Below, in pieces: positions 27,305 through 46,780 of a stretch of 64,000 bases of DNA. The translations under genes and the position numbers were made by a program. Below the pieces are notes generated by a model. That model made no database searches. It saw nothing but the letters and a program-made list of their open reading frames with translations, and had not been told where the DNA came from. Location of the stretch: contig NZ_JAHLQN010000001.1 in assembly GCF_018919205.1 (NCBI RefSeq), positions 1-64,000 of the forward strand, written 5' to 3'. Positions within the stretch are counted from its first letter, which is position 1. Every line of letters begins with the position of its first letter. This DNA comes from Dysosmobacter acutus (GTDB lineage Bacteria > Bacillota > Clostridia > Oscillospirales > Oscillospiraceae).

Positions 27305-27341
27305 TTCCCCGGAAAGCTTTGCCTTTCCGGGGAATTTTTTT
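27305..27341 (+). terminator. Terminator after rpsI
   Basis: A 12-bp stem TTCCCCGGAAAG/CTTTCCGGGGAA with a 6-nt loop is followed by seven T. Confidence 0.9.
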
Positions 27342-27621: not shown

Positions 27622-28512
27622 ATGGTCTCATTGCTTGAGGAAAGAGTGATTCACACCAAGCTGACAAAGACGGGCTACCGGATTGCCGAATATCTTTTGG
27701 AAAACGAATCCCGCCTGTGCTTTATGACGGCGACGGCCGTTGCAAGCGAGATCGGCGTCAGCGATGCCTCTGTTATCCGTGTGACCCGCGCACTCGGTTT
27801 CGACGGTTTTTCCGACATGCAGCGCCGCCTGCGGGAAAAAGCCACGGACATGCTCAGCAGCAGTACCATTGAGGATATATCTCCCTTGGAACGGCTGAAG
27901 AACCGCCACCCGCTGCAAAGTGATGCATGCAATGTGGAGAATCTTGCACAGCAGTGGTTTACCACCGCTGTGGGCAGTTTGCGCGGCGTCTATGAAAACA
28001 ATGACCTTTCCAAGTTTGAGGAGGCTGCAGACATGATCATTGCAAGCCGCCAAAAGCTGATCTGCGGTTTTCGCGCAAGCAGCAACATTGCCGGTTTTTT
28101 CAAGCTGATGCTCTCCTTGATCATGCCGAACGTTCATGATAGTCTGACCGCAGACTCCAGTGCAGTTGACAAGATGATGAACCTCACCGAAGAAGATTGT
28201 GTTGTGCTCTTTACCTTTCCGCGCTATTTTAAAATGTCCAAAGGTGTTGCGGAAATGGCCAGGGACAAGGGCGCCAAACTGATTATTTTCACGGACAGAG
28301 CCTCCTCTCCCATGGCTAACGGCGCGGACATCGTTATTGCCGCAGGCTCACAGAGCATGAACATCTTCTCGTCCAACATGGCCGCCCAGTTTGCCGCCGA
28401 GCTGATGATCACAATTATCAGCCATAAGCTGGGTATTGAGAAGATGACCTACCTGGAGTGGAAGGAAAAATATAATATCAAATACGGGGTGTTTGACAAA
28501 AATAGAGATTAA
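27622..28512 (+). CDS. MurR/RpiR family transcriptional regulator
   Basis: A 296-aa regulator with an N-terminal HTH_6 domain (TKTGYRIAEYLL near residue 15, then ASEIGVSDASVIRVTRALGFDGFSDMQ as recognition helix) and a C-terminal SIS-type ligand domain (about 120-270), which in this family binds sugar phosphates or other small metabolites. GGAGG lies 6 nt before ATG 27622. It directly precedes the nhaC-aminotransferase operon and probably controls it through the inverted repeats between the genes. Base composition is visibly less GC-rich than the flanking ribosomal genes. Confidence 0.88.
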   Translation: MVSLLEERVIHTKLTKTGYRIAEYLLENESRLCFMTATAVASEIGVSDASVIRVTRALGFDGFSDMQRRLREKATDMLSSSTIEDISPLERLKNRHPLQSDACNVENLAQQWFTTAVGSLRGVYENNDLSKFEEAADMIIASRQKLICGFRASSNIAGFFKLMLSLIMPNVHDSLTADSSAVDKMMNLTEEDCVVLFTFPRYFKMSKGVAEMARDKGAKLIIFTDRASSPMANGADIVIAAGSQSMNIFSSNMAAQFAAELMITIISHKLGIEKMTYLEWKEKYNIKYGVFDKNRD

Positions 28513-28519
28513 GTTTTTT

Positions 28520-28611
28520 CTACAACAATTTTTAAAATTGTTGTAGAGCTATTGACATTTTTGTTCTTTCCTGTTATACCGGTGTTGTGGAGCCTTCACA
28601 ACACCGGTATA
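28520..28611 (+). promoter_or_regulatory. Operon promoter flanked by two strong inverted repeats
   Basis: A 13-bp-arm palindrome (CTACAACAATTTT and its complement, 28520-28546) lies upstream of TTGACA (28552-28557), a 17-bp spacer and TATACC (28575-28580). A second inverted repeat with 15-bp arms (28575-28589 and 28597-28611) spans the -10 and transcription start. Both share ACAAC/GTTGT, suggesting one regulator binds both; the second could also form a 5'-end mRNA hairpin. Confidence 0.7.
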
Positions 28612-28634: not shown

Positions 28635-30047
28635 ATGGCAGGATTCGACACCAACGGCGGCAAAAAGCTTTTATTCCATGGTGGAAACTTCGGGGCTTTC
28701 ATCCCGCTAATTGTAATGGGCATAAGCATTGTCGGCCTCTTTTCCACCGGGAATACCTCCACCAACGCGTTTTGGATCGCGGGCTTTGCGGCGATCTGCG
28801 CAGCCTTTTTGCTGATGAAGGACAAGCGGGAATTCACGGAAGTCATTATTCGCGGTCTGAGCAGCTCAATGTGTGCAACCATGCTCTCTATTTTCCTCTT
28901 CGTCGGTATCTTTGCAAAAATTCTGACAATTGGAGGCCTGCCCAATGGTATTCTCTGGTTTTCCCAGCTCATTGGCGCCAGCGGGAAATTTTTCCCCCTT
29001 GCAATTTTCTTAATTGGCTGCCTGCTGGCCACTGCGACCGGCACCTCTGTGGGCACCATCAACACCATCGCTCCTGTGCTTTTCCCAGCCGCTGTCATGC
29101 TTGGCTGCAATCCTCTTCTGGTCATGGGCGCGATTGTCGGCGGCGCCTACTTCGGCGATAATCTTGCCCCTATCTCCGACACCACAATCATTTCAGCCGT
29201 TACGCAGGAGACGGATGTCCCCATCTGCGTGAAGACCCGGCTAAAGTATTCCATCACTGCGGGTCTCATTACCTGTGTTCTGTTCATTGTGTTCGGAATT
29301 TCCACCTTTACTCCGACCGACTCCATCGTGACGCTTGACGCCGGCGCGGCAAAGTCTCTTCTGCTGCTCATCGGCCCCGCCGTTCTCATCGTGATGATGC
29401 TTCGAGGCTCAAAAATGCTCTCCGCTCTTTTTACCGCGACGATGATCTCACTTGCTGTTGCACTTGTTTCCGGCCTGTTGGACTGGCAGGAGGGTGTGAT
29501 TTCAAGCTCGGGTGTTGTCATCGCGGGCATTAACGGTATGATCGGCCTCTCTGTTTATTCCTTCCTGCTCTTTATTCTTATGCAAATGCTGAGCGAATCC
29601 GGTGCGCTTGACGTAGTCGTCAGCGGCATTGGCCGGCATTGCAAAACCCCTGTCTCCGCTGAGTTCAGCTGCATCGGCCTGGTGATGTTTACAATGGCCT
29701 TTATCCCTAAGAACAACTGCTCCATGGTTGTCTCCGGCCCCGTTGTCAGGCGGATTCTCAAACAGCAAAATATTGCCCGCCACAGGGGTTCCAACTTATT
29801 GGACGGAATCGCCGTCGCTTTCGGAGGCTTATTGCCTTACGGCACCTGTATGCTTTTGACCTTTAATCTCGCCACTGAGTCGGGCGCTCTTGCAGAGGGC
29901 TACAACGTAGCTCAGATCATCCCTTATGCGTTCTACAGCTGGGTTCTCATTGCCGTGCTGGTTCTTTCCGTATTCATCGGCTGGGGCCGCGAATTTGAAG
30001 ACGAAGCTGGTGAAAATATCCCCGCGCCATCCAGAAAGGAGAAGTAA
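28635..30047 (+). CDS. nhaC: NhaC family antiporter
   Basis: A 470-aa integral membrane protein with about 11-12 hydrophobic segments and NhaC hallmarks: the GTSVGTINTIAPVLFP motif near residue 136 and GGAYFGDNLAPISDTTIISA near 170. The family includes Na+/H+ antiporters and also malate/lactate exchangers such as Bacillus MleN. As first gene of a catabolic operon it may carry the organic acid or amino acid substrate rather than serve pH homeostasis. AAGGAG precedes the ATG. The aminotransferase starts 1 bp after its stop. Confidence 0.88.
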   Translation: MAGFDTNGGKKLLFHGGNFGAFIPLIVMGISIVGLFSTGNTSTNAFWIAGFAAICAAFLLMKDKREFTEVIIRGLSSSMCATMLSIFLFVGIFAKILTIGGLPNGILWFSQLIGASGKFFPLAIFLIGCLLATATGTSVGTINTIAPVLFPAAVMLGCNPLLVMGAIVGGAYFGDNLAPISDTTIISAVTQETDVPICVKTRLKYSITAGLITCVLFIVFGISTFTPTDSIVTLDAGAAKSLLLLIGPAVLIVMMLRGSKMLSALFTATMISLAVALVSGLLDWQEGVISSSGVVIAGINGMIGLSVYSFLLFILMQMLSESGALDVVVSGIGRHCKTPVSAEFSCIGLVMFTMAFIPKNNCSMVVSGPVVRRILKQQNIARHRGSNLLDGIAVAFGGLLPYGTCMLLTFNLATESGALAEGYNVAQIIPYAFYSWVLIAVLVLSVFIGWGREFEDEAGENIPAPSRKEK

Positions 30048-30048
30048 C

Positions 30049-31110
30049 ATGGCCCTTACAATTACCCGTACACAGTACCCCAAAACAAAGCCGCAGGATT
30101 ACAGCAAGGGGTTCGGAAACATTCTGACTGACCACATGTTCCTTATGGATTACACCGAAGCAGAGGGATGGCATGACCCGCGCATCCTGCCCTTTGGCGC
30201 GCTTGCCTTAACTCCTGCGACAATGTGCTTTCACTATGGCCAGGAGATTTTCGAGGGCATGAAAGCCTACCGCACCGAAGATGGGCGTTTGCTCCTGTTC
30301 CGCCCGATGGACCATATGCGTCGTCTCAACCACTCCTGCGAGCGAATCTGTATCCCACAGGTCTGTGAAGAGGAACTCCTCGACTATCTGAAGGAACTTC
30401 TCAAAACTGATCTGGACTGGATTCAGGATTCCAATGTGGATTCCATCTATATACGTCCAATGATTATTGCAACCGAACCGGTCTTCGGTGCGCGACCGGC
30501 AAAGGACTATACCTGCATGGCCATGCTGACGCCGGGTCGTCCTCATATTCCCAAGGGCCCCAAGCCCGTGCGTATCTATGTGGAGAAGGAGCAGGCCCGC
30601 GCTGTCAGGGGCGGCACCGGAACAGCGAAATGTGCCGGAAACTACGCCTCCACCTTTGCAGCGCAGGCAAAGGCCAAGGCGCAGGGCTATACGCAAGTTC
30701 TCTGGCTCGACGGCGCTGAACGCAGGTATGTTGAGGAAATGGGGCAAATGAACATCTTCTTTGTCATCAAGGGCGAACTCATCACCCCAGATCTCAGCGG
30801 CACCATTCTCGACGGCATTACCCGCCGTTCTCTGCTGGCTATTGCGAAAGATTTGGGCTATCAAACGGTGGAGCGCCGCATCTCTATTCAGGAAATTATG
30901 ACAGCCCATGCCGATGGTACGCTGCAGGAAGCATTTGGCTGCGGCACTGGTGCCTGCATCGCTCCAGTGGGGGAGTTGACCTATGGTGAATGCCACATGA
31001 ACATCGGTAACGGCAGCATCGGCACGGTGACTTTCACGCTCTTTGAGCGGCTTACGCAGATCCAGCGCGGCCTGGTTCCCGATCCCTACGGTTGGACAAT
31101 GGAGGTGTAA
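30049..31110 (+). CDS. ilvE: Branched-chain amino acid aminotransferase-type enzyme
   Basis: A 353-aa fold-type IV PLP transaminase of the BCAT group II. The Schiff-base lysine is Lys194 in GTAKCAGNYA. QVLWLDGAERRYVEEMGQMNIFF near 220 and GCGTGACIAPV near 315 complete the signature. The usual reaction moves the amino group of Leu, Ile or Val to 2-oxoglutarate. The context (antiporter, VOC, hydratase-like and aldolase-like genes) suggests a catabolic role on a related, perhaps 4-substituted, amino acid. Small sequence deviations from the standard motifs are visible (CAGNYAST for CGGNYAAS). Confidence 0.88.
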   Translation: MALTITRTQYPKTKPQDYSKGFGNILTDHMFLMDYTEAEGWHDPRILPFGALALTPATMCFHYGQEIFEGMKAYRTEDGRLLLFRPMDHMRRLNHSCERICIPQVCEEELLDYLKELLKTDLDWIQDSNVDSIYIRPMIIATEPVFGARPAKDYTCMAMLTPGRPHIPKGPKPVRIYVEKEQARAVRGGTGTAKCAGNYASTFAAQAKAKAQGYTQVLWLDGAERRYVEEMGQMNIFFVIKGELITPDLSGTILDGITRRSLLAIAKDLGYQTVERRISIQEIMTAHADGTLQEAFGCGTGACIAPVGELTYGECHMNIGNGSIGTVTFTLFERLTQIQRGLVPDPYGWTMEV

Positions 31111-31114
31111 TGAC

Positions 31115-31465
31115 ATGATTACAAGGATCGACCACATCGACATCAAAGTCGAAGATTTGGATGCGACCGTCGCAATGCTTGGCAAGCTTGGACTGAAAAT
31201 CCTGCGCCGCGCTCCTGCGCCGCGCAGCTCCGTCGAAATGAGCCTTGAGGGGGAAAATCAGGTTGTCCTTGAAATCCATCCCGTCAAAGCCGGCGGCTTT
31301 ACGGGCGTGCACCACATCGCCTTTCGCGCCGATCCGAAGGACACGCTCAGTCTCAAAGCCCAAGGGATCAAATTCAAAACCGAGAATAAGTTCATTGCCG
31401 ATACCGGTCGGACTGTCAGCAGCTTTTCAGACGCAAACGGCTTAACCTGGCAACTGACAGATTGA
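31115..31465 (+). CDS. VOC superfamily (glyoxalase/epimerase-like) protein
   Basis: A 116-aa vicinal-oxygen-chelate protein with two beta-alpha-beta-beta-beta repeats. Probable metal ligands are His7 in RIDHIDIKV, a Glu in QVVLEIHPV near 52 and His in GVHHIAFRA near 67. Members include glyoxalase I, methylmalonyl-CoA epimerase and dioxygenases. Size and HHIAF motif are closest to the epimerase/glyoxalase group. In this operon it could isomerise or epimerise the oxo-acid intermediate. GGAGGTG lies 8 nt upstream; the gene follows the aminotransferase by 4 bp. Confidence 0.82.
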   Translation: MITRIDHIDIKVEDLDATVAMLGKLGLKILRRAPAPRSSVEMSLEGENQVVLEIHPVKAGGFTGVHHIAFRADPKDTLSLKAQGIKFKTENKFIADTGRTVSSFSDANGLTWQLTD

Positions 31466-31499
31466 CTTCCATGAAATGAGAGAGAAAGGATGTGTGCAA

Positions 31500-32225
31500 A
31501 TGAATCAAGACAGGCTTATGGTGGTGGCCGCCCATGTCGGCGACCTGGTGTGGCGCTGCGGAGGCACTGTTGCCAAATATGCAGCAGCGGGATTGCCGGT
31601 GAAGGTCATCATCCTATCCTATGGACTGCGCGGCGAATCCACCTCCTTGTGGAAGGATCCGACACGCACATGGGAAGATGCCAAACAGCGGCGGCATGCT
31701 GAAGCCGAGGCCATTGTCAATGCGCTCGGTGTAAAGGAGGCAGAGTATTGGGACCTTGTTGATTATCCTCTTTCGGCGAGCCAGGAGCTGACCGAACGGC
31801 TCGCCGGTTCGGTACGAGCTTTCGCTCCCACTATCCTGCTCACACACGACAGAAACCGGGATGTGATGAATCAGGATCACGGCTTGGCAGCCGAGCTGGT
31901 GTGGCAGGCAAGCATTCTGGCCGGAGCGGCCGGGTTCCGTGATGGTCAAGCGCCGGTTTCCGTGACATGCATGTTTGGTTTTGAGCCGCATATGCCGGAT
32001 ATGAGCGGCTTTCAGCCGGATATCTACATTGACATCACCGATGTCTGGAACATCAAACAGCAGGCGATGCTCTGCAACGAAACACAAAAAGGCATTATTG
32101 AAAACTATGTTGCAAAAGCGCAGATGCGGGCGAATCATTTTCGACGCATGGGCGGGCGTAAAACCTGCCAATATGCTGAGTGCTTCTCCCGTTTTTATCC
32201 CGCGTTTGCTGACTGGCTCTTCTGA
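31500..32225 (+). CDS. PIG-L family protein, 4-oxalomesaconate hydratase (GalB)-like
   Basis: A 241-aa PIG-L/LmbE-fold protein. Instead of the deacetylase AHPDDE motif it has AHVGDLVWRCGG (about 9-20), the form seen in GalB-type 4-oxalomesaconate hydratases of the gallate/protocatechuate meta-cleavage pathways. LLTHDRNRDVMNQDHG near residue 112 supplies further metal ligands. With the aldolase-like gene next it reproduces the galB-galC (hydratase-aldolase) pair, but no ring-cleavage oxygenase is present. Hydration of a 4-unsaturated 2-oxo acid is therefore the best guess. AAAGGA precedes; ATG 31500 is preferred over an upstream in-frame ATG. Confidence 0.78.
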   Translation: MNQDRLMVVAAHVGDLVWRCGGTVAKYAAAGLPVKVIILSYGLRGESTSLWKDPTRTWEDAKQRRHAEAEAIVNALGVKEAEYWDLVDYPLSASQELTERLAGSVRAFAPTILLTHDRNRDVMNQDHGLAAELVWQASILAGAAGFRDGQAPVSVTCMFGFEPHMPDMSGFQPDIYIDITDVWNIKQQAMLCNETQKGIIENYVAKAQMRANHFRRMGGRKTCQYAECFSRFYPAFADWLF

Positions 32226-32322
32226 CTTTCCTCTGCCCCCACGGCAAGCTTGCAAGAAAAAGAACGCAGCCCTATAGGCTTTTGCATAAGGGCAGCACAA
32301 ATGGTACAGGAGGATATAAACC

Positions 32323-33018
32323 ATGCCAATTGGAAACCGCATTTTTCTGCGGCGTCCCCTGCCGGACAAAGCCCTGGTCGCCGCATTTTCCTCCATCCCC
32401 GCAGCCAATATCGCCGACACAATGGGCCGTTCCTGCGCGATGCATCCGCGCATCAAACGGATGAGCGGCGCTTGCGGGATCATCGCAGGCCCTGCTTTGA
32501 CCGTAAAAAGCAGAGGCGGGGACAATCTCATGATCCACCAAGCTCTTGATATGGCACAGCCCGGGGATATCCTTGTGGTTTCAAATGATGAAGATTCAAC
32601 CCGCGCACTGATGGGCGAGGTCATGTTCACGTATGCCCAATATCAGCGTAGGCTTGGCGGATTGGTCCTCGACGGGCCAATCCGCGATGCGGACGAACTG
32701 CGCGCAATGACGCTCCCTGTCTATGCCACTGGCTCCACACCTGGCGGTCCGCACAAGGATGGCCCGGGTGAGATCAATGTTCCCATTGCCTGCGGCGGTA
32801 TCAGTGTGGCTCCCGGCGATATCATCGTTGCGGATGGAGACGGCGTAATTGTCATTCCGCTGCGGGACGCGCCCCAGGTGTTAGAGGCCGCTAAAAAATA
32901 CCGCACACAGGATGAGGCAAAGGTGCTCGCCGCACGCAGCGGCACTCAGAATCGCGACTGGGTACAAAAGCGAATCGAAGAGCGGCACGTTGAGATTCTT
33001 GATAAACGGTATTGCTAA
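32323..33018 (+). CDS. RraA-like / 4-hydroxy-4-methyl-2-oxoglutarate aldolase family protein
   Basis: A 231-aa protein of the RraA/HMG-CHA aldolase family, normal length. AANIADTMGR near residue 27, a GDILVVS segment near 85 and GGLVLDGPIRDADEL near 110, with the Arg and Asp that bind substrate and Mg2+ in class II pyruvate aldolases, support catalytic function over a role as RNase E regulator. The aldolases cleave 4-hydroxy-4-methyl-2-oxoglutarate to two pyruvates, or the 4-carboxy analogue to pyruvate and oxaloacetate. AGGAGG lies 9 nt upstream. It is the last gene of the operon, ahead of a terminator. Confidence 0.82.
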   Translation: MPIGNRIFLRRPLPDKALVAAFSSIPAANIADTMGRSCAMHPRIKRMSGACGIIAGPALTVKSRGGDNLMIHQALDMAQPGDILVVSNDEDSTRALMGEVMFTYAQYQRRLGGLVLDGPIRDADELRAMTLPVYATGSTPGGPHKDGPGEINVPIACGGISVAPGDIIVADGDGVIVIPLRDAPQVLEAAKKYRTQDEAKVLAARSGTQNRDWVQKRIEERHVEILDKRYC

Positions 33019-33155: not shown

Positions 33156-33196
33156 CAAAGGATGTCCGGAACCATCTGGTTCCGGACATCCTTTTG
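33156..33196. terminator. Bidirectional terminator between catabolic operons
   Basis: An 18-bp stem (AAAGGATGTCCGGAACCA) with a minimal loop and T-runs on both sides, between the convergent aldolase-like and M20 genes. The preceding 33019-33155 stretch holds no supported gene. Confidence 0.85.
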
Positions 33197-33238: not shown

Positions 33239-34435
33239 TTACAAAAGCGCCCCAAACTCCGAGCCCGTATAGAGGCAGGTGGCGCCGCACAGAGTCACCG
33301 CCCCGGTCAAAATCGCCTGTTCATTGAACACCAGCCGGGGGCTGTGGAGCGACAGACGGCTTTCGGGCCGCTCATCGCCAGTGCCGACGCGGAAAAATGT
33401 CCCGGGCACAGTTTGCAGGTAGCAGGCAAAGTCCTCGCTGCCCATTGAGGGAGAATCCAATTCACGCACGTGCTCCCCGCCCAAAAGGCGGGCCGCGGAC
33501 TCCTCCACCAGCCCGGTGAGTTCTTCTGACGGGATCAGGGGCGGGCAGCCTTCCGTGAACTCGGTATCCGCGCTTGTATTCAGGCTCTGGGCCGTCAGTG
33601 TGGCCATTCGCCGGATGCTGTCACGGATCCGCCGCCGGGCCTCATTGGACACCGTCCGCATCGTTCCCTCCAACACGGCCTCTGTGGGGATCGTATTGGC
33701 CGCAGTTCCCGCCGCCAGTTTTCCAACCGTCACGACAGCCGGCTCCGTGGGTTTTTGCTCCCGGGAGACAATGGTCTGCAATTGGGTGACGAGGTAGGCG
33801 GCCGCCACCACCGGATCGGCGGTTTTGTGGGGATGGGCTCCATGGCCTCCGGCGGCGTGGATTCGGATGCGGAACCGGTCCGATCCCGCCATCATCGCCC
33901 CTTTGCGGACACCGATCTCTCCGGCGGACAGCTCCGGCCAGGTGTGCAGGCCGAATATGGCCTCCACACGGGGCTGTTCCAAGCATCCGCTTTTCAGTAT
34001 GGTCCGGGCTCCCGCCAGCTGCTCCTCCGCAGGCTGGAAGATAAATTTTACCGTTCCATGCAGCCTGTCGCGTCGCTCGGACAGCAGCCGGGCGGCGGCC
34101 AGCACCGCGGCAGTATGAAGATCATGGCCGCAGGCGTGGCAAATGCCGTCTCTCCGGGAGGCAAAGGGCAGACCCGTCTGCTCTTGCACCGGCAGCGCGT
34201 CAATATCCGCCCGGACCGCCGCGGTCTTTCCCGGATACGCCCCATTCAGGACGCCGACAACCCCCGTCTTGTCCCCGCCCGGCTGACAGTCGATTCCGCA
34301 GGAGCGCAGCTCCCGCTCGATCAGGCGGCTGGTTTCCACCTCTTCAAATGCCGTTTCCGGGTTTTCATGGAGGATGCGGCGGATCGTGATGAACTTCTCT
34401 TCCAACTCTTTGGCGCGGTCCATGAGGGAAGACAT
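33239..34435 (-). CDS. M20 family amidohydrolase
   Basis: A 398-aa dinuclear metallohydrolase of the M20D (hippurate hydrolase/N-acyl-amino-acid amidohydrolase) type. Metal-binding motifs are intact: CHACGHDLHT near residue 95, FQPAEE with the catalytic Glu near 130 and GLHTWP near 160; SMGSEDFACY near 355 completes the site. Cytoplasmic release of amino acids from N-acyl or aromatic conjugates is typical. It is the last gene of the peptide-uptake operon. GAAGGAGGTG precedes the ATG at 34435. Confidence 0.9.
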   Translation of the reverse strand: MSSLMDRAKELEEKFITIRRILHENPETAFEEVETSRLIERELRSCGIDCQPGGDKTGVVGVLNGAYPGKTAAVRADIDALPVQEQTGLPFASRRDGICHACGHDLHTAAVLAAARLLSERRDRLHGTVKFIFQPAEEQLAGARTILKSGCLEQPRVEAIFGLHTWPELSAGEIGVRKGAMMAGSDRFRIRIHAAGGHGAHPHKTADPVVAAAYLVTQLQTIVSREQKPTEPAVVTVGKLAAGTAANTIPTEAVLEGTMRTVSNEARRRIRDSIRRMATLTAQSLNTSADTEFTEGCPPLIPSEELTGLVEESAARLLGGEHVRELDSPSMGSEDFACYLQTVPGTFFRVGTGDERPESRLSLHSPRLVFNEQAILTGAVTLCGATCLYTGSEFGALL

Positions 34436-34553
34436 GCTTACACCTCCTTCGTACATTGATACACTCAGCAGGTCTTGCGGAACATGCCTTTCAGGATAAA
34501 GAACTTACCGGGAATCCCTTCTTCACAGACATGCTGATCCCCCAAAACGCCGG

Positions 34554-34922
34554 TCAGTCCTTCACCGCCACCGCGTCCAACTCCACGGTGGCCTTACCGG
34601 CCAAAGCGCCGACCACCATCAGCGTTCGGGCGGGTGGGTTCTTGGCGAACTGCTCACAATACACTTTGTTGAACGGCGCGATGTCCTTTTGATCCGTCAG
34701 GATCGCGGTGATCTTGACCACATCGGCCAGGGTGCAGCCCTGCTCTTCCAGCACAGAGCTCAGACCGGAGATGGCAAAGCGTGTCTGCTCCTCTGCGGAA
34801 TCGGGAATGGTTCCCGTTGACGGATCGATTCCCACCTTTCCGGAGATGTAAAGCGTATTGCCTGCCCAGACGCACATGGAAAAGGGGCTTCCTTCCTTTT
34901 TGGGTGGTATAAACTGCTTCAT
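34554..34922 (-). CDS. ridA: RidA family (YjgF/UK114) protein
   Basis: A 122-aa trimeric deaminase family protein that hydrolyses reactive enamine/imine intermediates to 2-oxo acids. The C-terminal NPPARTLMVVGALAGKATVELDAVA segment contains the substrate-anchoring Arg and conserved Glu. Start at 34922 with AAAGGAAACAAG upstream. Its place in a peptide/amino-acid catabolic operon fits protection from 2-aminoacrylate produced by PLP enzymes. Confidence 0.9.
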   Translation of the reverse strand: MKQFIPPKKEGSPFSMCVWAGNTLYISGKVGIDPSTGTIPDSAEEQTRFAISGLSSVLEEQGCTLADVVKITAILTDQKDIAPFNKVYCEQFAKNPPARTLMVVGALAGKATVELDAVAVKD

Positions 34923-34968
34923 CTTGTTTCCTTTCTCTTCAGAAGATTGTTCGGTCAAGACAGCCGAA

Positions 34969-36504
34969 TCAGTTCGCGACAATGGTCTTCACATCCAGGG
35001 AGTCATCCAACTTCTGGGTCCAGGAGATGCCGTCCGCCTTGCCGAACACAGAGCGGGGTTCACAGATGAAGGCCAGGCCAGCATCCTCGTTCATGGCCAG
35101 CAGCGCCTCCTGCAGATAGGCTTCGTGGGCCTTCGTGTCAACCGTCACAGCGGCGGAGCGCATGTTCTCGTCGAACTTGTCGTTCTTCCAGATGGCATAG
35201 GCCTGATCGGAGATGAGGTAGGAGTTGGCGGTGTAGGCGTCAAAGGCGGGAGACCAGTACCAGCCAATCAGCCACGCGCCCTCAGAGGCCTCCTTCTGCT
35301 TCAGTCCCTCCAGGAAGGTGCCCCACTCCCAGACCTTTACCTCCACATCGATGCCCAATTCCCTCCACATGCCGGCAATTGCCTCCGCGATTTCCTTGTC
35401 GTTGGGATATCTGCCCTGGGGCGTATTCAGCGTGATCTTGAATCCGTCGCCGTATCCCGCCTCGCTCAGCAGCGCGGCAGCCTGCCCGGCGTCATAGGTA
35501 TAGGGGTTGCAGGCCTCGTTGTAGCCCACAACGCCTTCACTGGCCATCTGGCCGCTGAGCGGTGTGGCAAGGCTCTGGGAAACGCCGGTGATCAGAGCCT
35601 CCCGGTCGATGGCATAGTTCAGGGCCTGGCGGACCTTTACGTCCGAGGTGGGGGCATCAGGGTCCAGGGCCTGAAGATGCAGCACCAGTCCCATAGCCAT
35701 GGGGGAGTCCACCGTGCTGTAGCCGGAGGCTGTTCTGACCTGGCTGATGGAGGTAGAGGGGATGTTGTAGGCGATGTCCACGTCACCGGCCAGCAGCGCG
35801 GCCACACGGGTGGATGCCTCGGGGGTAATCTGCCAGGTGACGTCCTTCATGGCGGGCGCGTCGCCCCAATAGTCCTCATTGGCCGTCAGAATGATATTCT
35901 GGTCCGGAACCCAGGAGACAAACTTGTAGGCGCCTGTTCCCACCGGATTCTGGGAGAGGACGGAAAGCTCGCTGTCCCCATAATACTGCTGCGGCACCAT
36001 GTACAAAGCGTCCAGATAGGTCAGAAGCAGCGGATAGGGCTCGTCGGTAATCAGGTCCACGGTGTACTCATCAATGACATTGGCGGTCTTCAGGGGCGCC
36101 AGCTTGACGGTCTTGATGGAATTGAGGTCTGTGTCCCAGATTCTCTCCACGTTGTACCGGACTGTCTCTGCGTTGAACGCTTCCCCGTTGTGGAATTTCA
36201 CGTCCTCACGGAGATGAAAGCGGACGGTGGTATCGTCGATCTGTTCCCAGCTCTCCGCCAGCAGGGGGGCAATCTCGCCGTCGCTGCTGATTTTTACCAG
36301 CCCTTCAAAGATGCAGCGGTAGATATCCTGGATGGAGCGGGTATCATCGGTGTAGGGATCCAGGCTGCCAGGTCCCCCTCCGACGGCGATGGTTACGGAG
36401 GTTTTCTCCTCCCCTTCCTGCCGCGCCTGATCGCCGCAGCCCGTCAGCGCATAAGCGCTGATCAGCAGTACAGCGGCCAACAGCAATGCCTGTATACGTT
36501 TCAT
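34969..36504 (-). CDS. ABC transporter substrate-binding lipoprotein, dipeptide/oligopeptide (SBP_bac_5)
   Basis: A 511-aa family 5 solute-binding protein with a lipoprotein signal (lipobox LTGC, Cys about residue 23). Family features include a GSLDPYTDD start, DDTTVRFHLREDVKFHNGEAF near 105-125 and a region II with KVRQALNYAIDREALI near 300. It captures peptides outside the membrane for the permeases and ATPases encoded upstream in the same operon. GAAAGGAGAAACCC precedes the ATG. The ligand cannot be told from sequence. Confidence 0.93.
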   Translation of the reverse strand: MKRIQALLLAAVLLISAYALTGCGDQARQEGEEKTSVTIAVGGGPGSLDPYTDDTRSIQDIYRCIFEGLVKISSDGEIAPLLAESWEQIDDTTVRFHLREDVKFHNGEAFNAETVRYNVERIWDTDLNSIKTVKLAPLKTANVIDEYTVDLITDEPYPLLLTYLDALYMVPQQYYGDSELSVLSQNPVGTGAYKFVSWVPDQNIILTANEDYWGDAPAMKDVTWQITPEASTRVAALLAGDVDIAYNIPSTSISQVRTASGYSTVDSPMAMGLVLHLQALDPDAPTSDVKVRQALNYAIDREALITGVSQSLATPLSGQMASEGVVGYNEACNPYTYDAGQAAALLSEAGYGDGFKITLNTPQGRYPNDKEIAEAIAGMWRELGIDVEVKVWEWGTFLEGLKQKEASEGAWLIGWYWSPAFDAYTANSYLISDQAYAIWKNDKFDENMRSAAVTVDTKAHEAYLQEALLAMNEDAGLAFICEPRSVFGKADGISWTQKLDDSLDVKTIVAN

Positions 36505-36574
36505 AGGGTTTCTCCTTTCATCAATCGCAATCTTATTTGGTTGTTGTGGCTCACTGAAAAAGACATCTGCCGCG

Positions 36575-37414
36575 TCACTCCATTTTGAGGACTCGGCGCA
36601 TGAAATCGCCAAGGATAGTGATGGATGCGCAGGTGATAAAAATTGCCAGGCCCGGGATCGTGGCCACCCACCAGGCGGTGGCCAGGACCGCGCGGCCGTC
36701 GGAGGTCATCAGCCCCCAGCTGGAGCTGTCCGCCGGAACGCCCATGCCGATGAAGCTCAACGCGGATTCCAGCAGGATCATCCGGGCCGCCTCCGTGGTG
36801 GCCAGGGTGGTGATGATGCCCATCACGTTGGGCACAATGTGCTTCATGAGAATCCACCCGGGAGAGGCCCCCATGGAAACCGCCGCCCGGACATAGTCCA
36901 TGGACCGCAGCGTGATCGCCTGGGAACGGGCCATGCGGGCATATCGGGGCCAGCTGGTGATGGACAAGATGAGGATGACGCTCCAGAGCGAGGGGTCGAA
37001 AATAGAGGCCAGCGTCAGCGCCAGCACAAAAAAGGGAATCGACATCTGGGTGTCGGTGACGGCGCAGGTCACAAGGTCCAGCGCACCGCCGAAATAGCCC
37101 GCCATCACGCCGATGAGGACGCCAAGGACACCGGCGAAGAGAACGCTGGCCAGGCACACCAGGAGCGACACCCGGCTGCCGTAGATGACCCGGCTCAAAA
37201 TATCCCGTCCTAACTGGTCCGTCCCGAAGAGGTTGGCCAGACTGGGCGCGGAAAGGCAGTTCCGCAGATCCTGCTTCAGCGGGTCCATAGGGGCAAGCGC
37301 GCCGGCGAACAGGGCGCAGAGCACAATCACGATCAAAATGACAGCGGCCACATAGTGGGTCGGCCTTGCCAGATACCGGGCCCGCTGCAAAAGCCTGTTG
37401 GACTGTTTTTTCAT
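36575..37414 (-). CDS. Peptide ABC transporter permease (DppC/OppC type)
   Basis: A 279-aa inner-membrane permease with an N-terminal segment (about 22-42), the FGTDQLGRDILSRVIYGSR motif near residue 65 typical of DppC, five further membrane segments, and the EAA loop near 180-200 (AAVSMGASPGWILMKHIVPN). TAAGAGGAGGAGCT precedes the ATG at 37414; an upstream extension in the same frame lacks support. Confidence 0.93.
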   Translation of the reverse strand: MKKQSNRLLQRARYLARPTHYVAAVILIVIVLCALFAGALAPMDPLKQDLRNCLSAPSLANLFGTDQLGRDILSRVIYGSRVSLLVCLASVLFAGVLGVLIGVMAGYFGGALDLVTCAVTDTQMSIPFFVLALTLASIFDPSLWSVILILSITSWPRYARMARSQAITLRSMDYVRAAVSMGASPGWILMKHIVPNVMGIITTLATTEAARMILLESALSFIGMGVPADSSSWGLMTSDGRAVLATAWWVATIPGLAIFITCASITILGDFMRRVLKME

Positions 37415-37425
37415 AGCTCCTCCTC

Positions 37426-38352
37426 TTACCCCATACGCACCCGGGGATCCAGCACCGAATAGGCCAAATCCACGATCAGATTCACGAGGGCCACGGTGAC
37501 CGCGCACACCAGCACAAAGGTCTGAGTCAGCGCAAAGTCCCGGTTGAAGATGGCGCTGACCGCCAGGCGGCCCATGCCGGAATAGCCGAACACCACCTCC
37601 GTGACCACAGAGCCGCCCATCAGCGAACCAAACTGCATGCCCACCGCCGTAATGGTGGGCAGCGCCGCGTTGCGGATCACGTGCCGGGCGATCACCCTGC
37701 GCTCCGTCAGGCCCTTGGCCTTGGCAGTGCGGATGTAGTCCTGACCCATCACCTGCAGCACGCTGGTCCGGACGATCCGGGCGTACATGCCGGCCTCAAA
37801 GGTTCCCAGGGTGATGGCGGGCAGGACCATGTGCTTCCATGTCCCCACGCCGGAGGATGGAAACCAGCGGAGCTTTACGGCAAACAGCAGAATCAGCATC
37901 AGCGCCCACCAGAAGGTAGGGATGCTCTGACCCAGCAAAGACACGGTGGAGACAATGCTGTCCGTGCTGGTTCCCGCCTTCCGGGCCGCCAGAATGCCGG
38001 CGGGCACCGCAATGGCAAGCGCCACGCACAGCGCCACCAGCACAAGCTTCAGGGTCTGGAGATAAGGCATTTTGATGACCTCCAGAGCAGGCAGCCCATA
38101 GCTGAAGGAATCGCCGAAGTCGCCGTGGAGAATGCCCGCCAGAAAGCTGAAAAACTGCTGGATCAGCGGACGGTCCAGTCCCAGGCTGGCACGCATGGCC
38201 GCGATCTGCGCCTCGGAGGCGTCCAGGGGAAGGTAAAGCGCCACCGGGTCGCCGCTCAGCCGAACCAGAAAGAACACCACGGCGGCAATGCCCAGCAGGG
38301 ATAAAAGCAGCGTAACAATGCGCTTGCATAAGTAGACAATGGACTGTTTCAA
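37426..38352 (-). CDS. Peptide ABC transporter permease (DppB/OppB type)
   Basis: A 308-aa permease with six membrane segments. DppB features are RLSGDPVALYLP near residue 31, LGLDRPLIQQFFSFL near 57 with GDFGDSF, and the EAA motif region near 200-225 (KAKGLTERRVIARHVIRNAALP). It likely starts at TTG 38352, with AAGGAGGCGGAG directly upstream. It is followed by the DppC-type gene after 11 bp. Confidence 0.93.
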   Translation of the reverse strand: MKQSIVYLCKRIVTLLLSLLGIAAVVFFLVRLSGDPVALYLPLDASEAQIAAMRASLGLDRPLIQQFFSFLAGILHGDFGDSFSYGLPALEVIKMPYLQTLKLVLVALCVALAIAVPAGILAARKAGTSTDSIVSTVSLLGQSIPTFWWALMLILLFAVKLRWFPSSGVGTWKHMVLPAITLGTFEAGMYARIVRTSVLQVMGQDYIRTAKAKGLTERRVIARHVIRNAALPTITAVGMQFGSLMGGSVVTEVVFGYSGMGRLAVSAIFNRDFALTQTFVLVCAVTVALVNLIVDLAYSVLDPRVRMG

Positions 38353-38368
38353 GACTCCGCCTCCTTGC

Positions 38369-39469
38369 TTATGAGAGTTTCAGACTGCTCCAGTCGGCGG
38401 ACCTGGACAGGATCCTGCCGCCTTCGGCCGTGACAAGGACGGTATCTTCGATGTGCATGATTGCGCCCAGGTTCCGGTGGGCCGGCTCCAGATTGATGAC
38501 CATGTTCTCCTCCAGTGCAATGTCCGAATCCGGGCCGATGATAGGCGTGTCGTGCTGGCCCAGGCCCAGACCGTGGCCGGTGATGGTATAGGCGTAAATC
38601 AGCCGATGCTGTTCAAAGAGCTCCAGACAGAGATTGTGCAGCTCCCTGCCCCGGATCCCCGGTCTGGCCGCGGCAATGATCTGAGCCTGGATATGATAGA
38701 GAATCTCCCAATACTCCCTCTGCTCCCCGGTGGGTTCTCCCACAACAACCGTTCTCGCCAGGTCGGACATATATCCAGAAAAAATGCCTCCCGCATCCGT
38801 GCGGATGAGCTCTCCATTCTCCAGGGGGCGTATTTCCGCCTTAGGATGGGCCAGTGCAGCGTTTTCGCCCGCGCCGCAGGTCACGTGCTCCACCAGGTCC
38901 GCTCCGTTTCGCAGCAGCTCGACAGCGATGCGGCTCTCCACGTTCTTTTCCATCTCCCCGGGCTTTGCGGTCATAAACGCCTGGCGGATGGCCCGGTCGG
39001 TGGCCAGAGCGGAGCTGTGCAGGAGCCGAATCTCCTCTGGTGTCTTAACCATGCGGACCCAGTCTGTGATCTGATCCGCGGCAACGAACTCCGCATCGGG
39101 CAGACAGTCTCTCAGCTCATCGTAAAAGCGGGCGCTGAGGGCAATCTTTTCAAGGCCGATTCTTCCGCTCATCAATCCATAGGAGCGGATGACGTTGGCC
39201 ACAAGCTCTATGGGAGAGTCGATGTACTCCCTGTAGAACACGGCGCCGCGGACCTTGGAGCTCTTTTCCACCAATGCCTCGGTGATGGCGCAGGCAACAA
39301 GAACCGGCTGACCCGACGCGGGAATCACAACGGCGCTCAATCGTGTGGGGATGGATCTGGCCGGGATCTTGTAGGCCTTGGTCAGATAGAAGACGCTGTC
39401 GTGTGAAGTGGCGACCAATGCGTCCAGTTTCTGTGTCTTCATTCTCTCCTGAATGCGCTGGATTTCCAA
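38369..39469 (-). CDS. M24 family Xaa-Pro peptidase
   Basis: A 366-aa creatinase-fold metallopeptidase. All five metal ligands are visible: Asp in RTDAGG, Asp in MSDLART, His in GHGLGLGQHD, Glu in NLEPAH and Glu in HIEDTVL. It removes N-terminal residues preceding proline in the cytoplasm, a sensible partner to a peptide importer. TTG 39469 is preferred as start because AAAGGAG lies 7 nt upstream of it; ATG 39487, which itself includes that AAAGGAG within its codons, is the alternative. Confidence 0.9.
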   Translation of the reverse strand: MEIQRIQERMKTQKLDALVATSHDSVFYLTKAYKIPARSIPTRLSAVVIPASGQPVLVACAITEALVEKSSKVRGAVFYREYIDSPIELVANVIRSYGLMSGRIGLEKIALSARFYDELRDCLPDAEFVAADQITDWVRMVKTPEEIRLLHSSALATDRAIRQAFMTAKPGEMEKNVESRIAVELLRNGADLVEHVTCGAGENAALAHPKAEIRPLENGELIRTDAGGIFSGYMSDLARTVVVGEPTGEQREYWEILYHIQAQIIAAARPGIRGRELHNLCLELFEQHRLIYAYTITGHGLGLGQHDTPIIGPDSDIALEENMVINLEPAHRNLGAIMHIEDTVLVTAEGGRILSRSADWSSLKLS

Positions 39470-39496
39470 ACGATCACTCCTTTCCATCCCGTTGTG

Positions 39497-40936
39497 TCAG
39501 TTCTCCGCGTAGTTATAAAGCAGATCGATAAACGAGGCCTCCAATTCCCGCAGTCCGGGGCGCTCATCACCGCTTTCGATGACAAGACACTCGTCAGGCC
39601 CCGCGTTGCCGCCCATGGTGATGCCGTTTCCAAAACCGGTGAGCACCTTGATGCCCAGCTTGTCGGAGATGACGCCCACCGGGTTGCTTGCGCTCTTTTT
39701 TGGCCAGATAAGGGGCTTGACCGGAGAATCCTCCAGGGCCCGGAGCGCGGCCTGAACAAGGTCGTCCTCCAGGTCGCTGCTGGTGGAGCCGTAGCCTCCC
39801 ATCACGTCCATCTCAATGTCCGCAAAGCCGTGGGCATCCAAATGGCCGCGCAGGGCGGAGAGCGTCTGCTCCACCGTCATGTTCCGAGGCAGGCGCAGGT
39901 CAAAGCGGGCAACCGCTTCCGTGGGCAGCGTGAAGAGCGGTGTTCCAGGGCCGGTGTAACCCGCCCGCAGGCCGTTGATGTTGAAGGAGGGGTGGAACAG
40001 ATAGCGCTTGAGAAGCTCCTTGCCCTCCAGGTCAAAGACGAATCGCTCAACCCTTCCGGGCTGGCCGGAGATGTATGGGAGGACATCCTGCAGAGGCCGG
40101 CCGTCGAACTGGGCAAGCAGCTCGTCGATGAGCCGGTCCTCCGCCTCTGTGGGCTGGGCCAGCCCCTCTCCGAATCCCTCAACGGTGACCTCCTGGGTTT
40201 CGGGATCAAACAGGGTGGACAGCGCCTGCACCAACCGCCAGACCGGACTGTCCACCACACACTGCGCCGAGCCGTGGACAAAAGAGCCCTGGGGGCCCCT
40301 GCCCCACTTTTCACCGCTGACCTTCATATCCAGGTGAATAAAGCCCTTGTTACCAAGCGTGATGATGGGCACGCCCGCAGGCGTTACTCCGGCCTCCGTA
40401 CACAGGCCGTAATCCGCCGCCGCCAGCCGTTTTTGATACTTTTCCAGCATAAAGGGGACGTTCCTGCTGGAGAGGAACTCCTCTCCCTCGATGAGCAGCA
40501 TCACATTGACCGGCAGGGTTCCGTCGGCTGCCACAATCTTCTTCAAAGCGTTGATAAAGGTCAGGATTGGCCCCTTGTTCCGCACGCCCCTGCCAAAAAG
40601 CACGCTTTTGAATTCGCCCCTTGGGCCAACCACGCCGCCAAAGGGCTCCACGGTCCAGCCCTGTCCCACGCTGTTGCAGTCAAAATAACCGTAGACCACC
40701 AGCGTCTTGGCCGCCTTGGCGTCGTAATAGCCCCAGACGCCGGGATAGCCCGGAGTCTCGATCAGCTCCGCCTCCGTGCAGTCCAACTCCTTGAGATGTC
40801 TCAGTATCAGCCCGGCGCACTCTCTCATCCCCTTCCCTTCACAGCTGATGCTGGGCTGGGCCACAAACTCCCGCAGATTTTCAAGGCTCACATCCAGTGT
40901 TTTTTCAGAATAAAGCAGACTTTCTTTTCTTGACAT
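39497..40936 (-). CDS. M20 family peptidase-like protein with altered metal ligands
   Basis: A 479-aa protein of the M20 dipeptidase group (length and the EGEEFLSSRNV, PKKSASNPVG and GNAGPDECLV blocks agree). The usual first ligand motif GHxD is YGYFDCN near residue 85, and the bridging-Asp motif GRGxxDxKG is GRGVRNKG near 116, so a His and an Asp ligand are replaced. The second-shell Glu-Glu pair is kept. It may have a changed metal site or be catalytically inactive. AAGGAGAAGCTGCG precedes the ATG. It sits between transporter ATPase and M24 genes. Confidence 0.85.
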   Translation of the reverse strand: MSRKESLLYSEKTLDVSLENLREFVAQPSISCEGKGMRECAGLILRHLKELDCTEAELIETPGYPGVWGYYDAKAAKTLVVYGYFDCNSVGQGWTVEPFGGVVGPRGEFKSVLFGRGVRNKGPILTFINALKKIVAADGTLPVNVMLLIEGEEFLSSRNVPFMLEKYQKRLAAADYGLCTEAGVTPAGVPIITLGNKGFIHLDMKVSGEKWGRGPQGSFVHGSAQCVVDSPVWRLVQALSTLFDPETQEVTVEGFGEGLAQPTEAEDRLIDELLAQFDGRPLQDVLPYISGQPGRVERFVFDLEGKELLKRYLFHPSFNINGLRAGYTGPGTPLFTLPTEAVARFDLRLPRNMTVEQTLSALRGHLDAHGFADIEMDVMGGYGSTSSDLEDDLVQAALRALEDSPVKPLIWPKKSASNPVGVISDKLGIKVLTGFGNGITMGGNAGPDECLVIESGDERPGLRELEASFIDLLYNYAEN

Positions 40937-40993
40937 CGCAGCTTCTCCTTACCGTTGTCTCAATTTCGTATTTGCTCTGCGCCGCGCAGGCGT

Positions 40994-41938
40994 TTATTCA
41001 TAGAGCCAGCACGCCACCTGATGGCCTCCGCCCGTGTCCTTCAGCGTCACATCTCCTTGCAGGCATCGCTGCGAGGCATGGGGGCAGCGTGGAGCGAAGC
41101 GGCAGCCGGGCTTGGGGTTGATGGGGTTGGAGAGTTCTCCCTTGATGAAGGTGCGCTCTCTCTTTTCCATCAGCTTCGGAATGGGGATTGCCGCCAGCAG
41201 CGCCTGGGTATATGGGTGCATGGGATGTTCAAAAATCTCCCTGGAGGAGGCCAGCTCGATGCACTGGCCCAGGTACATGACCGCAATTTTTGTGGAGATG
41301 TGCTTGACCACCGCCAGATTGTGGGTGATGAACACATAGGTCAGGTGCATGGACTCCTGAAGGTCCATCAGCAGGTTCAGAATCTGGGCCTGGATGGATA
41401 CGTCCAGCGCGGAGACCGGCTCGTCGCAGACGATCATCCTCGGATTCAGGGCCAGGGCCCGGGCCACGCAGATCCGCTGCCGCCGCCCGCCGTCCAGCTC
41501 GTTGGGATACATGCTGGCAAAGCGGGGCGAGAGGCCCGCCATCTCCATCAGCTCCTTCACCCGGTCATTTGCCTCCGATCGAGTCCGATACACCTTGTTG
41601 ATGAGAAGCGGTTCCGCGATGAGGTCCAAGACCTGGATGCGGGAGTCCAGGCTGAAGAGGGGGTCCTGAAAGATGATCTGCATATTGGGCCGCAGCTTCT
41701 TCCGCTCGGCGCGGCCACAGCTGACAATGCTCTTACCCTGAAAGAGCACATCTCCGGAGGTAGGACGCTCCAGGCCCAGGACCACCCGGCCCAATGTGGA
41801 TTTGCCGCAGCCGGACTCGCCGACCACGCCCAGGGTCTCGCCCTCCTCCACACAGATGCTGACGCCGTCCACGGCATGGAGCTTTCCGTTTTTCACGTCG
41901 TAGTACTTTTTCAAATCCTTTGTTTCCAGCAGGGTCAT
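40994..41938 (-). CDS. Peptide ABC transporter ATP-binding protein (DppF/OppF type)
   Basis: A 314-aa ATPase with Walker [10 protein letters not shown] near residue 41, Q-loop IIFQDP, Walker [14 protein letters not shown], the H-loop His in FITHNL, and the C-terminal oligopeptide-transporter Cys motif ([11 protein letters not shown]). The ABC signature reads LDGGRRQR where LSGGQ is normal, a notable change at the Ser. The start at 41938 is supported by GGAGGAATGACGCT, 4 bp after the DppD-type gene. Confidence 0.92.
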
Positions 41939-41942
41939 AGCG

Positions 41943-42911
41943 TCATTCCTCCTTAAAGCGATGACAGGCGATCTCATGGGTCCCAACGCGGCAGACCGGG
42001 GGATGGACCGTCTTGCAGCGTTCGGTGCAGTAGCGGCAGCGGGGATGGAACTTGCAGCCCGTGGGCAGGTCCAGAGGGTCCGGCATGGCGCCTTCGATGG
42101 GACTGAGACGCCTTGCCTCTGATTTGATATCCGGAATCGCGCCGAAGAGCCCCTCCGTATAGGGATGATGGCGCCGTCCTTCAAAGATGTCCCGGACCGT
42201 ACCCTGCTCCACGATCTCGCCGGCGTACACCACAGCCACTGTGTCGCAGACCTGAGCCACAATGCCCAGATCATGGGTGATGATCATCATGGAGGTTCCC
42301 AATCGCTCCTTCAGCTCCTCCACCAGATCCAGCACCTGGGCCTGGATGGTGACATCCAGGGCGGTGGTGGGCTCATCGGCAATCAGCAGTTCCGGATCAC
42401 AGGCCAGCGCCATGGCAATGACAATGCGCTGCTTCATCCCCCCGGAGAACTGATGGGGGTAATCCTTTTTTCGGTCGGGCTGGATACCCACCAATTTCAA
42501 AAGATTGTCCACCCGCTGCTCCATATTTGTGCCGGAGTGGTCGTCATGGGCCTCCAGCACCTCCTTAATCTGCCTTTCAATGGTCATCACGGGATTGAGC
42601 ACGGAGATGGGGTCCTGAAAGATCATGGCAATGCGGGAGCCGCGCAGTTCCCGCATTGCGCTCTCCGGCAGCCGGAGCAGGTCCTCTCCCCGATAGAAGA
42701 CCTGGCCCTTTTCCACCTGCCCCGCCTTCTCAGGCAGCAGCCGCATGATGGAAAGCCCTGTGGTTGTCTTACCCGCGCCCGTCTCTCCCACAAAGCCCAG
42801 CGTCTGCCTGCGGTCGATGGAAAAGGTGATCCCGTTGACCGCGCGGGCAATCCCCTCCTCACTTGTGTAGACCACGCTCAGGTCCTTTACCTCCAACAGT
42901 GTTTCAGCCAT
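41943..42911 (-). CDS. Peptide ABC transporter ATP-binding protein (DppD/OppD type)
   Basis: A 322-aa ATPase with Walker A GETGAGKTT near residue 40, MIFQDPISVLNP, signature FSGGMKQR, Walker B LLIADEPTTALD and the C-terminal GCKFHPRCRYC motif of peptide transporters. TTGGAGGGGATACC precedes the ATG. First gene of the nine-gene peptide operon on the minus strand. Confidence 0.95.
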   Translation of the reverse strand: MAETLLEVKDLSVVYTSEEGIARAVNGITFSIDRRQTLGFVGETGAGKTTTGLSIMRLLPEKAGQVEKGQVFYRGEDLLRLPESAMRELRGSRIAMIFQDPISVLNPVMTIERQIKEVLEAHDDHSGTNMEQRVDNLLKLVGIQPDRKKDYPHQFSGGMKQRIVIAMALACDPELLIADEPTTALDVTIQAQVLDLVEELKERLGTSMMIITHDLGIVAQVCDTVAVVYAGEIVEQGTVRDIFEGRRHHPYTEGLFGAIPDIKSEARRLSPIEGAMPDPLDLPTGCKFHPRCRYCTERCKTVHPPVCRVGTHEIACHRFKEE

Positions 42912-42968
42912 GGTATCCCCTCCAAAAGATCATTTTTACCGGCGCTCATTTCCCTTGACCGCAAAAGA

Positions 42969-43010
42969 GCGCAGAGCCAACACCCATACAAGTGGGTGTT
43001 GGCTCTGCGC
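42969..43010 (-). terminator. Strong hairpin between Cys-rich gene and peptide operon
   Basis: An 18-bp perfect stem (GCGCAGAGCCAACACCCA) with a 6-nt loop, partly enclosed by AAAAGAG/CTCTTTTT. On the minus strand it follows the Cys-rich gene and ends in TCTTTT, so it can act as a terminator or attenuator ahead of the dpp-type genes. Confidence 0.75.
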
Positions 43011-43028
43011 CTCAGCGTCTGGCTCTTT

Positions 43029-43193
43029 TTATTTCTGTTGTTCTAAGATTTTTCCTTCGCGCACGGTGATGACGGACTCATGCCTGCACTTTGGACAAAA
43101 GAGCGGGAAATTCTCAAGCACCGTGTCCCGCCTCACCTGTACCCTTGTCTTGCTGTTGCAAAACGGGCACAGCAACCAGATTTTATTTTCCAT
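43029..43193 (-). CDS. Small cysteine-rich KTR-like protein, 54 aa
   Basis: A 54-residue protein with two zinc-ribbon halves, CPFCNSKTRVQVR near residue 9 and FCPKCRHES near 32. This matches the small cysteine-rich KTR family, whose name comes from the KTR following the first CxxC. Such proteins bind zinc and are frequent beside regulators and on mobile elements; function unknown. The start lies 13 bp after the GntR stop, with no strong ribosome binding site, so coupling to GntR is likely. Confidence 0.75.
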   Translation of the reverse strand: MENKIWLLCPFCNSKTRVQVRRDTVLENFPLFCPKCRHESVITVREGKILEQQK

Positions 43194-43206
43194 TACGCCA
43201 TTCTTT

Positions 43207-43896: not shown

Positions 43897-43920
43897 TTTA
43901 CCCCCTCACTCACCTATACG

Positions 43921-43933
43921 GTTAGTCGCTAAC
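43921..43933 (-). promoter_or_regulatory. GntR operator candidate 2 (GTTAG-TCG-CTAAC)
   Basis: A 13-bp palindrome in the gntR leader, 25 bp before the start codon. It is nearly identical to the copy at 44036 and of the size expected for FadR-type operators. Confidence 0.6.
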
Positions 43934-44035
43934 TTTTATATCAAAACCCAAAAGAAAAATATTCTATAAAACTATTGATATATAAGGATTTATTTCAAAT
44001 TTTCACTTCTTTTTCTTCCATTCAAATTTTAGCGT

Positions 44036-44225: not shown

Positions 44226-44243
44226 TCATGCGCGAACTTCCGA

Positions 44244-45416: not shown

Positions 45417-45417
45417 T

Positions 45418-46763: not shown

Positions 46764-46780
46764 ATCCCGCACATGGATTT

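Follow-up and report, generated by a model that had tools for sequence, protein, structure and literature searches.

Layout of the locus

The first 64,000 nucleotides of contig NZ_JAHLQN010000001.1 of Dysosmobacter acutus (the window) carry, at positions 28635-33018 of the plus strand, an operon of five genes, which encode an NhaC-superfamily transporter, a class-IV aminotransferase, a single-domain VOC protein, a GalB-like PIG-L protein and an RraA-fold protein (Table 1). An earlier interpretation made without database searches (the sequence-only reading) had described these genes as tightly spaced and as lying behind one promoter and an RpiR regulator, with a terminator at their end. The five reading frames and their family assignments were confirmed, and a Shine-Dalgarno-like stretch precedes each start. 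The intergenic gaps are 1, 4, 34 and 97 bp, the last of them looser than had been claimed.

Table 1. Features of the operon and its control region
Feature	Position	Strand	Basis
RpiR-family regulator, 296 aa, HTH_6 and SIS domains	27622..28512	+	Pfam; start by GGAGG before ATG 27622
Perfect palindrome, 14-nt arms, immediately 5′ of the -35 element; candidate RpiR operator	28519..28547		
Promoter TTGACA-17-TATACC, TG before the -10 element	-35 28552-28557, -10 28575-28580	+	Read from the sequence by eye
Second palindrome, from the -10 element on, 18-nt arms, 94%; possible second operator or 5′ hairpin	28575..28611		
NhaC-superfamily (PF03553) transporter	28635..30047	+	Pfam Na_H_antiporter
Class-IV aminotransferase, type II branched-chain aminotransferase with altered side-chain pocket	30049..31110	+	Aminotran_4, ilvE_II, alignments
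Single-domain VOC protein, 116 aa	31115..31465	+	Pfam Glyoxalase_4
GalB-like PIG-L protein, putative metal-dependent hydratase	31500..32225	+	Pfam, structure match, alignment, tree
RraA-fold protein, putative class II pyruvate aldolase	32323..33018	+	Pfam, NCBIfam, structure match, alignment, tree
Terminator-like hairpin between the operon and a convergent M20 gene, 18-nt perfect arms, then T-rich tail TTTTGATTTGTTT	33157..33194		

The promoter, the regulator gene and the terminator-like hairpin are all present as claimed. The promoter sits between, and partly under, the two palindromes, and it is absent from the listing of a consensus scan because the rule of that scan demands a T at the last position. 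The pattern of the first palindrome has one match in the window and none in 100 shuffles. The RpiR protein scores 55.3 bits for HTH_6 and 53.8 for SIS, both over the curated cut-offs, and is the likely local regulator of the operon; its start is most likely the ATG listed rather than the TTG at 27553, since GGAGG lies upstream of the former. The transporter scores 75.5 bits with Na_H_antiporter, also over the curated cut-off, but falls far below the NhaC equivalog cut-off (76.5 vs 370 bits), and no solved-structure relative was found at E 0.001. It would be a substrate importer or exchanger, with a direction of transport that is presumed.

At 50.6-57.6% GC, the regulator and operon genes lie below the 59.4% of the window, a difference that is in line with their acquisition by transfer. 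Upstream, a strong terminator-like hairpin (27305-27334) directly follows the genes of ribosomal proteins L13 and S9, and the lower-GC RpiR gene and operon start beyond it. Downstream lies a convergent minus-strand block of peptide and amino-acid genes (33239-49025), which contains an M20 amidohydrolase, RidA, an oligopeptide-type ABC transporter (SBP_bac_5, two permeases and two ATPases), M24, a second M20, GntR, malic enzyme, a LarA-like lactate racemase, a creatininase-like protein and an SSF symporter.

Enzyme families of the operon

The PIG-L protein scores 76.5 bits with its Pfam model, over the curated cut-off, and its closest solved structure is the GalB hydratase 5cgz (E 3e-42), the runner-up being a deacetylase (5e-6). 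In an alignment with 20 other GalB-like sequences (from 19 loci, plus 5cgz), it retains 33 of the 35 columns that are invariant across the others, the two lost being V61 and A72, where the window protein has A61 and I72. Among the residues retained are H12, D15, E46, D126, H127 and the RGE and EP motifs, so that a PIG-L fold is combined with the GalB-type motifs H..D.VWR, RGES, N.DH and EPH. The histidine of EPH, H164 (His in 16 of the 20 others), is retained as well; together with E48, we take it to be catalytic in GalB. The next position, Q165, which is Gln in 18 of the 20 others, is Met in the window protein, a change that, beside the presumed catalytic His, would fit a substrate without one of the carboxylates of 4-oxalomesaconate. 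In any case, the best solved match and the retained residues agree with the sequence-only reading of this protein as a GalB-type hydratase, for which hydration of 4-oxalomesaconate would be the putative activity.

The RraA protein (153.7 bits with the RraA-like Pfam model, over the curated cut-off) has its best solved-structure match in 3noj (E 2e-27). It retains all 12 columns invariant in 19 others and, of the residues of 3noj, N71, H75, R123, D124 and K147, while Asp replaces E199. The RraA fold is therefore accompanied by the Arg-Asp catalytic and metal pair and the acidic metal ligand of LigK-type enzymes (R121, D122 and D197). The roles of R123, D124 and E199 in 3noj, and those of T145 and R195, are taken from PMC5065237. 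The protein also passes the NF004850 model 'PRK06201' (243 vs 231). As with the hydratase, the earlier assignment, a pyruvate aldolase of the RraA type, is in keeping with the best solved match and with the conserved residues.

The aminotransferase scores 128.8 bits with Aminotran_4, over the curated cut-off. A search of the genome gave two class-IV aminotransferases, both of them type II branched-chain aminotransferases (BCATs): the operon enzyme and a second one at G000:C1:1236675-1237403 (L009). Both pass the ilvE_II model (cut-off 250), with 348 and 369.6 bits, respectively, and annotation would label the operon enzyme an ordinary BCAT. Like type II BCATs, of which the best other match is 54% identical, it retains the PLP lysine, the catalytic Glu and the Arg (K202, E237 and R143 in human numbering). 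Unlike them, it does not have the conserved side-chain pocket, as changes affect five of the ten residues that PMC6957111 gives for the pocket (L153F, V155A, Y173H, T240Q and A314G, human numbering). For the same ten residues, 18 of 30 comparison BCATs show no change, 10 show one and 2 show two, and L009 has 8 of the 10 human residues. The substrate-entry loop reads PGRPHI in the operon enzyme instead of PVGAYY (PVGSYY in L009), so that Arg and His enter it; the Arg replaces G171, which is Gly in 30/30 others. Across the 164 columns with a conservation of at least 90% among the 30 comparison sequences, the operon enzyme deviates at 38. The pocket changes, which make residues smaller at two sites and introduce polar or cationic ones at others, might accommodate a side chain that is acidic and branched at C4. 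BCATs accept both leucine and glutamate, and a C4-branched glutamate would therefore be a natural hybrid substrate.

The aminotransferase query matched 215 of 391 genomes of the class at 1e-60, the own genome counted, and the closest named BCAT in the plasmid collection is that of Monoglobus (49.6%). The identity to 29 BCATs of the class is 43.6-51.0% for L009 and 49.6-53.3% for the operon enzyme. As L009 is the more divergent of the two, the lineage of the window may have an unusual main BCAT.

The VOC protein matches its Pfam profile, Glyoxalase_4, weakly (30.9 bits, cut-off 27). It has the N-terminal IDHI strand in common with methylmalonyl-CoA epimerase-like proteins, but at 116 aa it reaches only 21 bits with the epimerase model, vs a cut-off of 115. 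Two haloarchaeal relatives (33%) share IDHI, EIH, HIAF and the final Gln with it, and their contexts (2 of 4 records) look unrelated. This Gln was assigned by eye to the last VOC metal position, which is usually Glu. The VOC query found no match at 1e-8 among 85 other genomes of the genus and 264 others of the class.

Related loci and DUF6282 modules

Nine other genome loci and ten of 76 plasmid records were compared with the operon. In 18 of these 19 PIG-L loci an RraA gene lies in the same stretch, the exception being L002, where it is also lacking from the longer stretch L058. A known setting of such a pair is the lower pathway of gallate and protocatechuate 4,5-cleavage (GalB plus a LigK-type HMG/CHA aldolase), in which, as here, a GalB-type PIG-L protein adjoins an RraA-fold aldolase and the residues are conserved. 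However, the operon is without the usual dioxygenase (there is neither a two-domain nor a LigAB-type one), the tautomerase and LigI, and it has instead an aminotransferase and a single-domain VOC protein, together with another transporter and regulator. An annotated tautomerase or ring-cleavage gene is carried by 7 of the 10 plasmid examples; of the other three, L061 and L067 belong to Rieske-type clusters and L012 has neither gene in the stretch shown.

A second type of setting contains a gene of the DUF6282 family, to which Pfam assigns no function. Such a gene lies within the cluster in 9 of the 19 loci, from Enterococcus, genomes of the window's phylum and Thermus: L003 (5298-13196), L006 (7947-14238), L007 (2-5441), L053, L054, L055 (about 6 kb off), L056, L057 and Thermus L014 (5078-8112). 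These modules hold the closest relatives of the window PIG-L protein (at most 47% identity) and, in part, those of its RraA protein. In a tree that contained the GalB/DUF6282 set and no deacetylase, the window PIG-L protein clusters with those of L003, L006, L007, L056 and L057 (99/97; end branch 1.62). In a separate RraA tree, the window RraA protein clusters with those of L003, L006, L007 and L056 (100/98); both thus group with modules from Enterococcus and from genomes of the window's class. By contrast, the modules are fed by DUF6282, have GntR regulators and use TRAP-TAXI or fused TRAP (L006, L007, L053 and L054), Tct (L055 and L057) or AspT-like (L003) transporters, whereas the operon has the aminotransferase and the VOC protein, an NhaC-superfamily transporter and RpiR. 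No DUF6282 gene is found in the operon.

The contexts of these modules suggest that DUF6282 may be a hydrolase that makes 4-oxalomesaconate, for instance, from 2-pyrone-4,6-dicarboxylate. In Thermus L014, DUF6282, PIG-L and RraA adjoin a gene annotated as catechol 2,3-dioxygenase and one for an oxidoreductase. The Enterococcus cluster L003 runs on into genes for a protein like the alpha subunit of oxaloacetate decarboxylase or pyruvate carboxylase (it misses the OadA equivalog cut-offs but passes that of the PRK09282 domain), a biotin carrier and OAD_beta. The RraA proteins of L007 and L056 form a distinct long branch (3.37) apart from those of L003 and L006, though the PIG-L proteins are close, and the aldolase may therefore have been exchanged within the module. 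The genome of the window itself has two distant DUF6282 genes (L069 4915-5856, minus strand; L070 5476-6363, plus strand; 32-33% identical to that of L006), of which one neighbours M32 peptidase and amidohydrolase genes and the other comes straight after an SSF symporter gene.

Searches with the PIG-L protein, in genome samples that overlap, gave 1 match among 39 other relatives at E 1e-20 (G015, 39%, with no RraA or DUF6282 within 14 kb), 2 among 390 others of the class at 1e-25, 0 among 393 others of the order and 3 among 397 others of the phylum. Additionally, 3 matches, two of them already found, came from 22 genomes of the family of G148, and a single named genome came from a scan of genome contigs. 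Within the stretches fetched for the genome loci (3.7-17.4 kb), no open reading frame of at least 90 aa matched the window's aminotransferase or VOC protein best at E 1e-5, and no aminotransferase is annotated in any of the ten plasmid stretches. Consequently, the conservation that the sequence-only reading had asked for is seen for the PIG-L/RraA core, and the five-gene cluster has no second example among the genomes searched.

Our reading of these comparisons is that the lower half of the operon would be descended from a DUF6282-type module whose feeder was changed to an aminotransferase and a VOC protein. The sequence-only reading had stressed that no ring-cleavage gene is present. Although it was right that the operon has no usual dioxygenase, this lack is not new in itself, because DUF6282-fed PIG-L/RraA pairs, some with no ring-cleavage gene seen, recur in relatives. 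The new element is the entry by aminotransferase and VOC protein into an already known GalB/aldolase lower pathway. In the open-access literature, no paper was found that joins '4-oxalomesaconate hydratase' and 'PIG-L' and none on 'DUF6282', nor a published name for the module; none of the titles listed concerned bacterial breakdown of methyleneglutamate or such an operon.

A candidate route and its alternatives

From these sequences we infer a route in which the NhaC-superfamily protein would import an amino acid and the class-IV aminotransferase would convert it into a 4-substituted 2-oxo acid, which the VOC protein would isomerise or tautomerise. The PIG-L hydratase would then put water on the C=C bond, giving a tertiary alcohol at C4, and the RraA-type aldolase would split the resulting 4-hydroxy-2-oxo acid into pyruvate and a second 2-oxo acid. 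That the operon channels an amino acid, most likely a C4-branched glutamate, through a hydratase to a pyruvate aldolase is a proposal that we hold with moderate confidence, the case for it and the case against it being about balanced. Any single compound is a far less probable answer, the neatest guess being 4-methyleneglutamate, from which the second product would also be pyruvate. This amino acid occurs in legumes and tulips. GalB acts on a 2-oxo acid with a carboxylate at C4 and hydrates its C4=C bond, and 4-methylene-2-oxoglutarate is 4-oxalomesaconate minus the distal carboxylate. Two reports list 4-methylene-2-oxoglutarate: in mouse gut cultures (PMC11677903) it was assigned putatively by mass spectrometry, and in a microbiota and metabolite study (PMC11006619) it is a putative metabolite that differs between patient groups. 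A dedicated bacterial route for 4-alkylidene or other 4-branched glutamates, formed by replacement of the feeder in a DUF6282-type module, is a tentative extension that we consider doubtful.

Several observations weigh against the proposed route. None of the other genomes searched yielded the complete operon and, because of this, the tie of the aminotransferase and the VOC protein to the PIG-L/RraA core rests on the operon structure of one example. The enrichment of changes in the aminotransferase pocket over general divergence is not significant (5/10 vs 66/226 conserved columns, P = 0.13; for L009, 2/10 vs 84/224, P = 0.94). L009 is itself divergent, with an end branch of 2.39 vs 1.61 for the operon enzyme, so that either of the two may be the one that serves branched-chain amino acids. 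The RraA protein differs from 3noj at T145 (Pro) and R195 (Tyr) and lies below the LigK and CHA-aldolase equivalogs (134.2 vs 304.5 and 148 vs 179 bits); as these cut-offs are missed, it is to be filed as an RraA-type aldolase and not as LigK. Additionally, the RraA proteins of the DUF6282 modules L055 and L057, as well as those of L053, L054 and Thermus L014, stand elsewhere in the tree, outside the window's group, and the tree tool flags long branches for the window sequences in both the PIG-L and the RraA trees, so that false joining is possible. For the VOC protein, the single-sequence structure model is poor (mean pLDDT 45.7), and its role as an isomerase or tautomerase of an unsaturated 2-oxo acid, replacing the tautomerase of proteobacterial clusters, is a guess that derives from the position of the gene.

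The strongest competing explanation takes the operon for a variant DUF6282-type module, in which a carboxylic acid would be processed via 4-oxalomesaconate to pyruvate and oxaloacetate, and the aminotransferase would only shuttle amino groups or aminate a product. The nearest PIG-L and RraA relatives are located in such modules, the Enterococcus one adjoins oxaloacetate-decarboxylase-type genes, the window PIG-L protein retains nearly all invariant columns, and the genome has DUF6282 genes elsewhere. However, the operon is without DUF6282, TRAP or Tct genes, the copies elsewhere in the genome are distant and in other contexts, and the aminotransferase pocket is altered, and we regard this explanation as rather unlikely.

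It is improbable that the PIG-L protein is a true N-deacylase that would free an N-acyl amino acid for the BCAT, with the RraA protein acting on an unrelated 2-oxo acid. Although most members of the PIG-L family are deacetylases and the convergent neighbouring block contains M20 amidohydrolase genes, the GalB-type columns are retained, GalB is far ahead of the next match among solved structures, the tree places the protein inside its GalB/DUF6282 set (a set with no deacetylase in it), and RraA accompanies PIG-L in nearly all the loci compared.

We give equally little credence to a conventional role in branched-chain amino acid metabolism, in which the other genes would be unrelated ones caught up in the same transcription unit. 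The operon enzyme passes ilvE_II and is overall less divergent from the BCATs of the class than L009 is; against this, L009 scores higher on that model, the pocket residues of the operon enzyme differ, and no branched-chain biosynthesis gene is among the profiled neighbours. The sequence-only reading would have been undone by ordinary leucine and valine activity alone, against which the altered pocket and the second BCAT speak, if not decisively. Finally, a gallate-type aromatic pathway with the VOC protein as ring-cleaving dioxygenase is very improbable, for, although two gallate-type clusters (L013 and L062) have a gene annotated as catechol 2,3-dioxygenase or VOC between those for PIG-L and the aldolase, the proteins encoded there have about 320 aa, the VOC protein of the operon has 116 aa and Gln at the last metal position, the operon has no tautomerase or hydroxylase, and the aminotransferase would be left unexplained.

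If the route from an amino acid through hydratase and aldolase is correct, the GalB/pyruvate-aldolase pair, familiar from the aerobic degradation of aromatics, would be a module to which microbes couple other sources, in this case an amino acid. What microbes do with the non-protein amino acids of food plants could then be approached by experiment through this operon.

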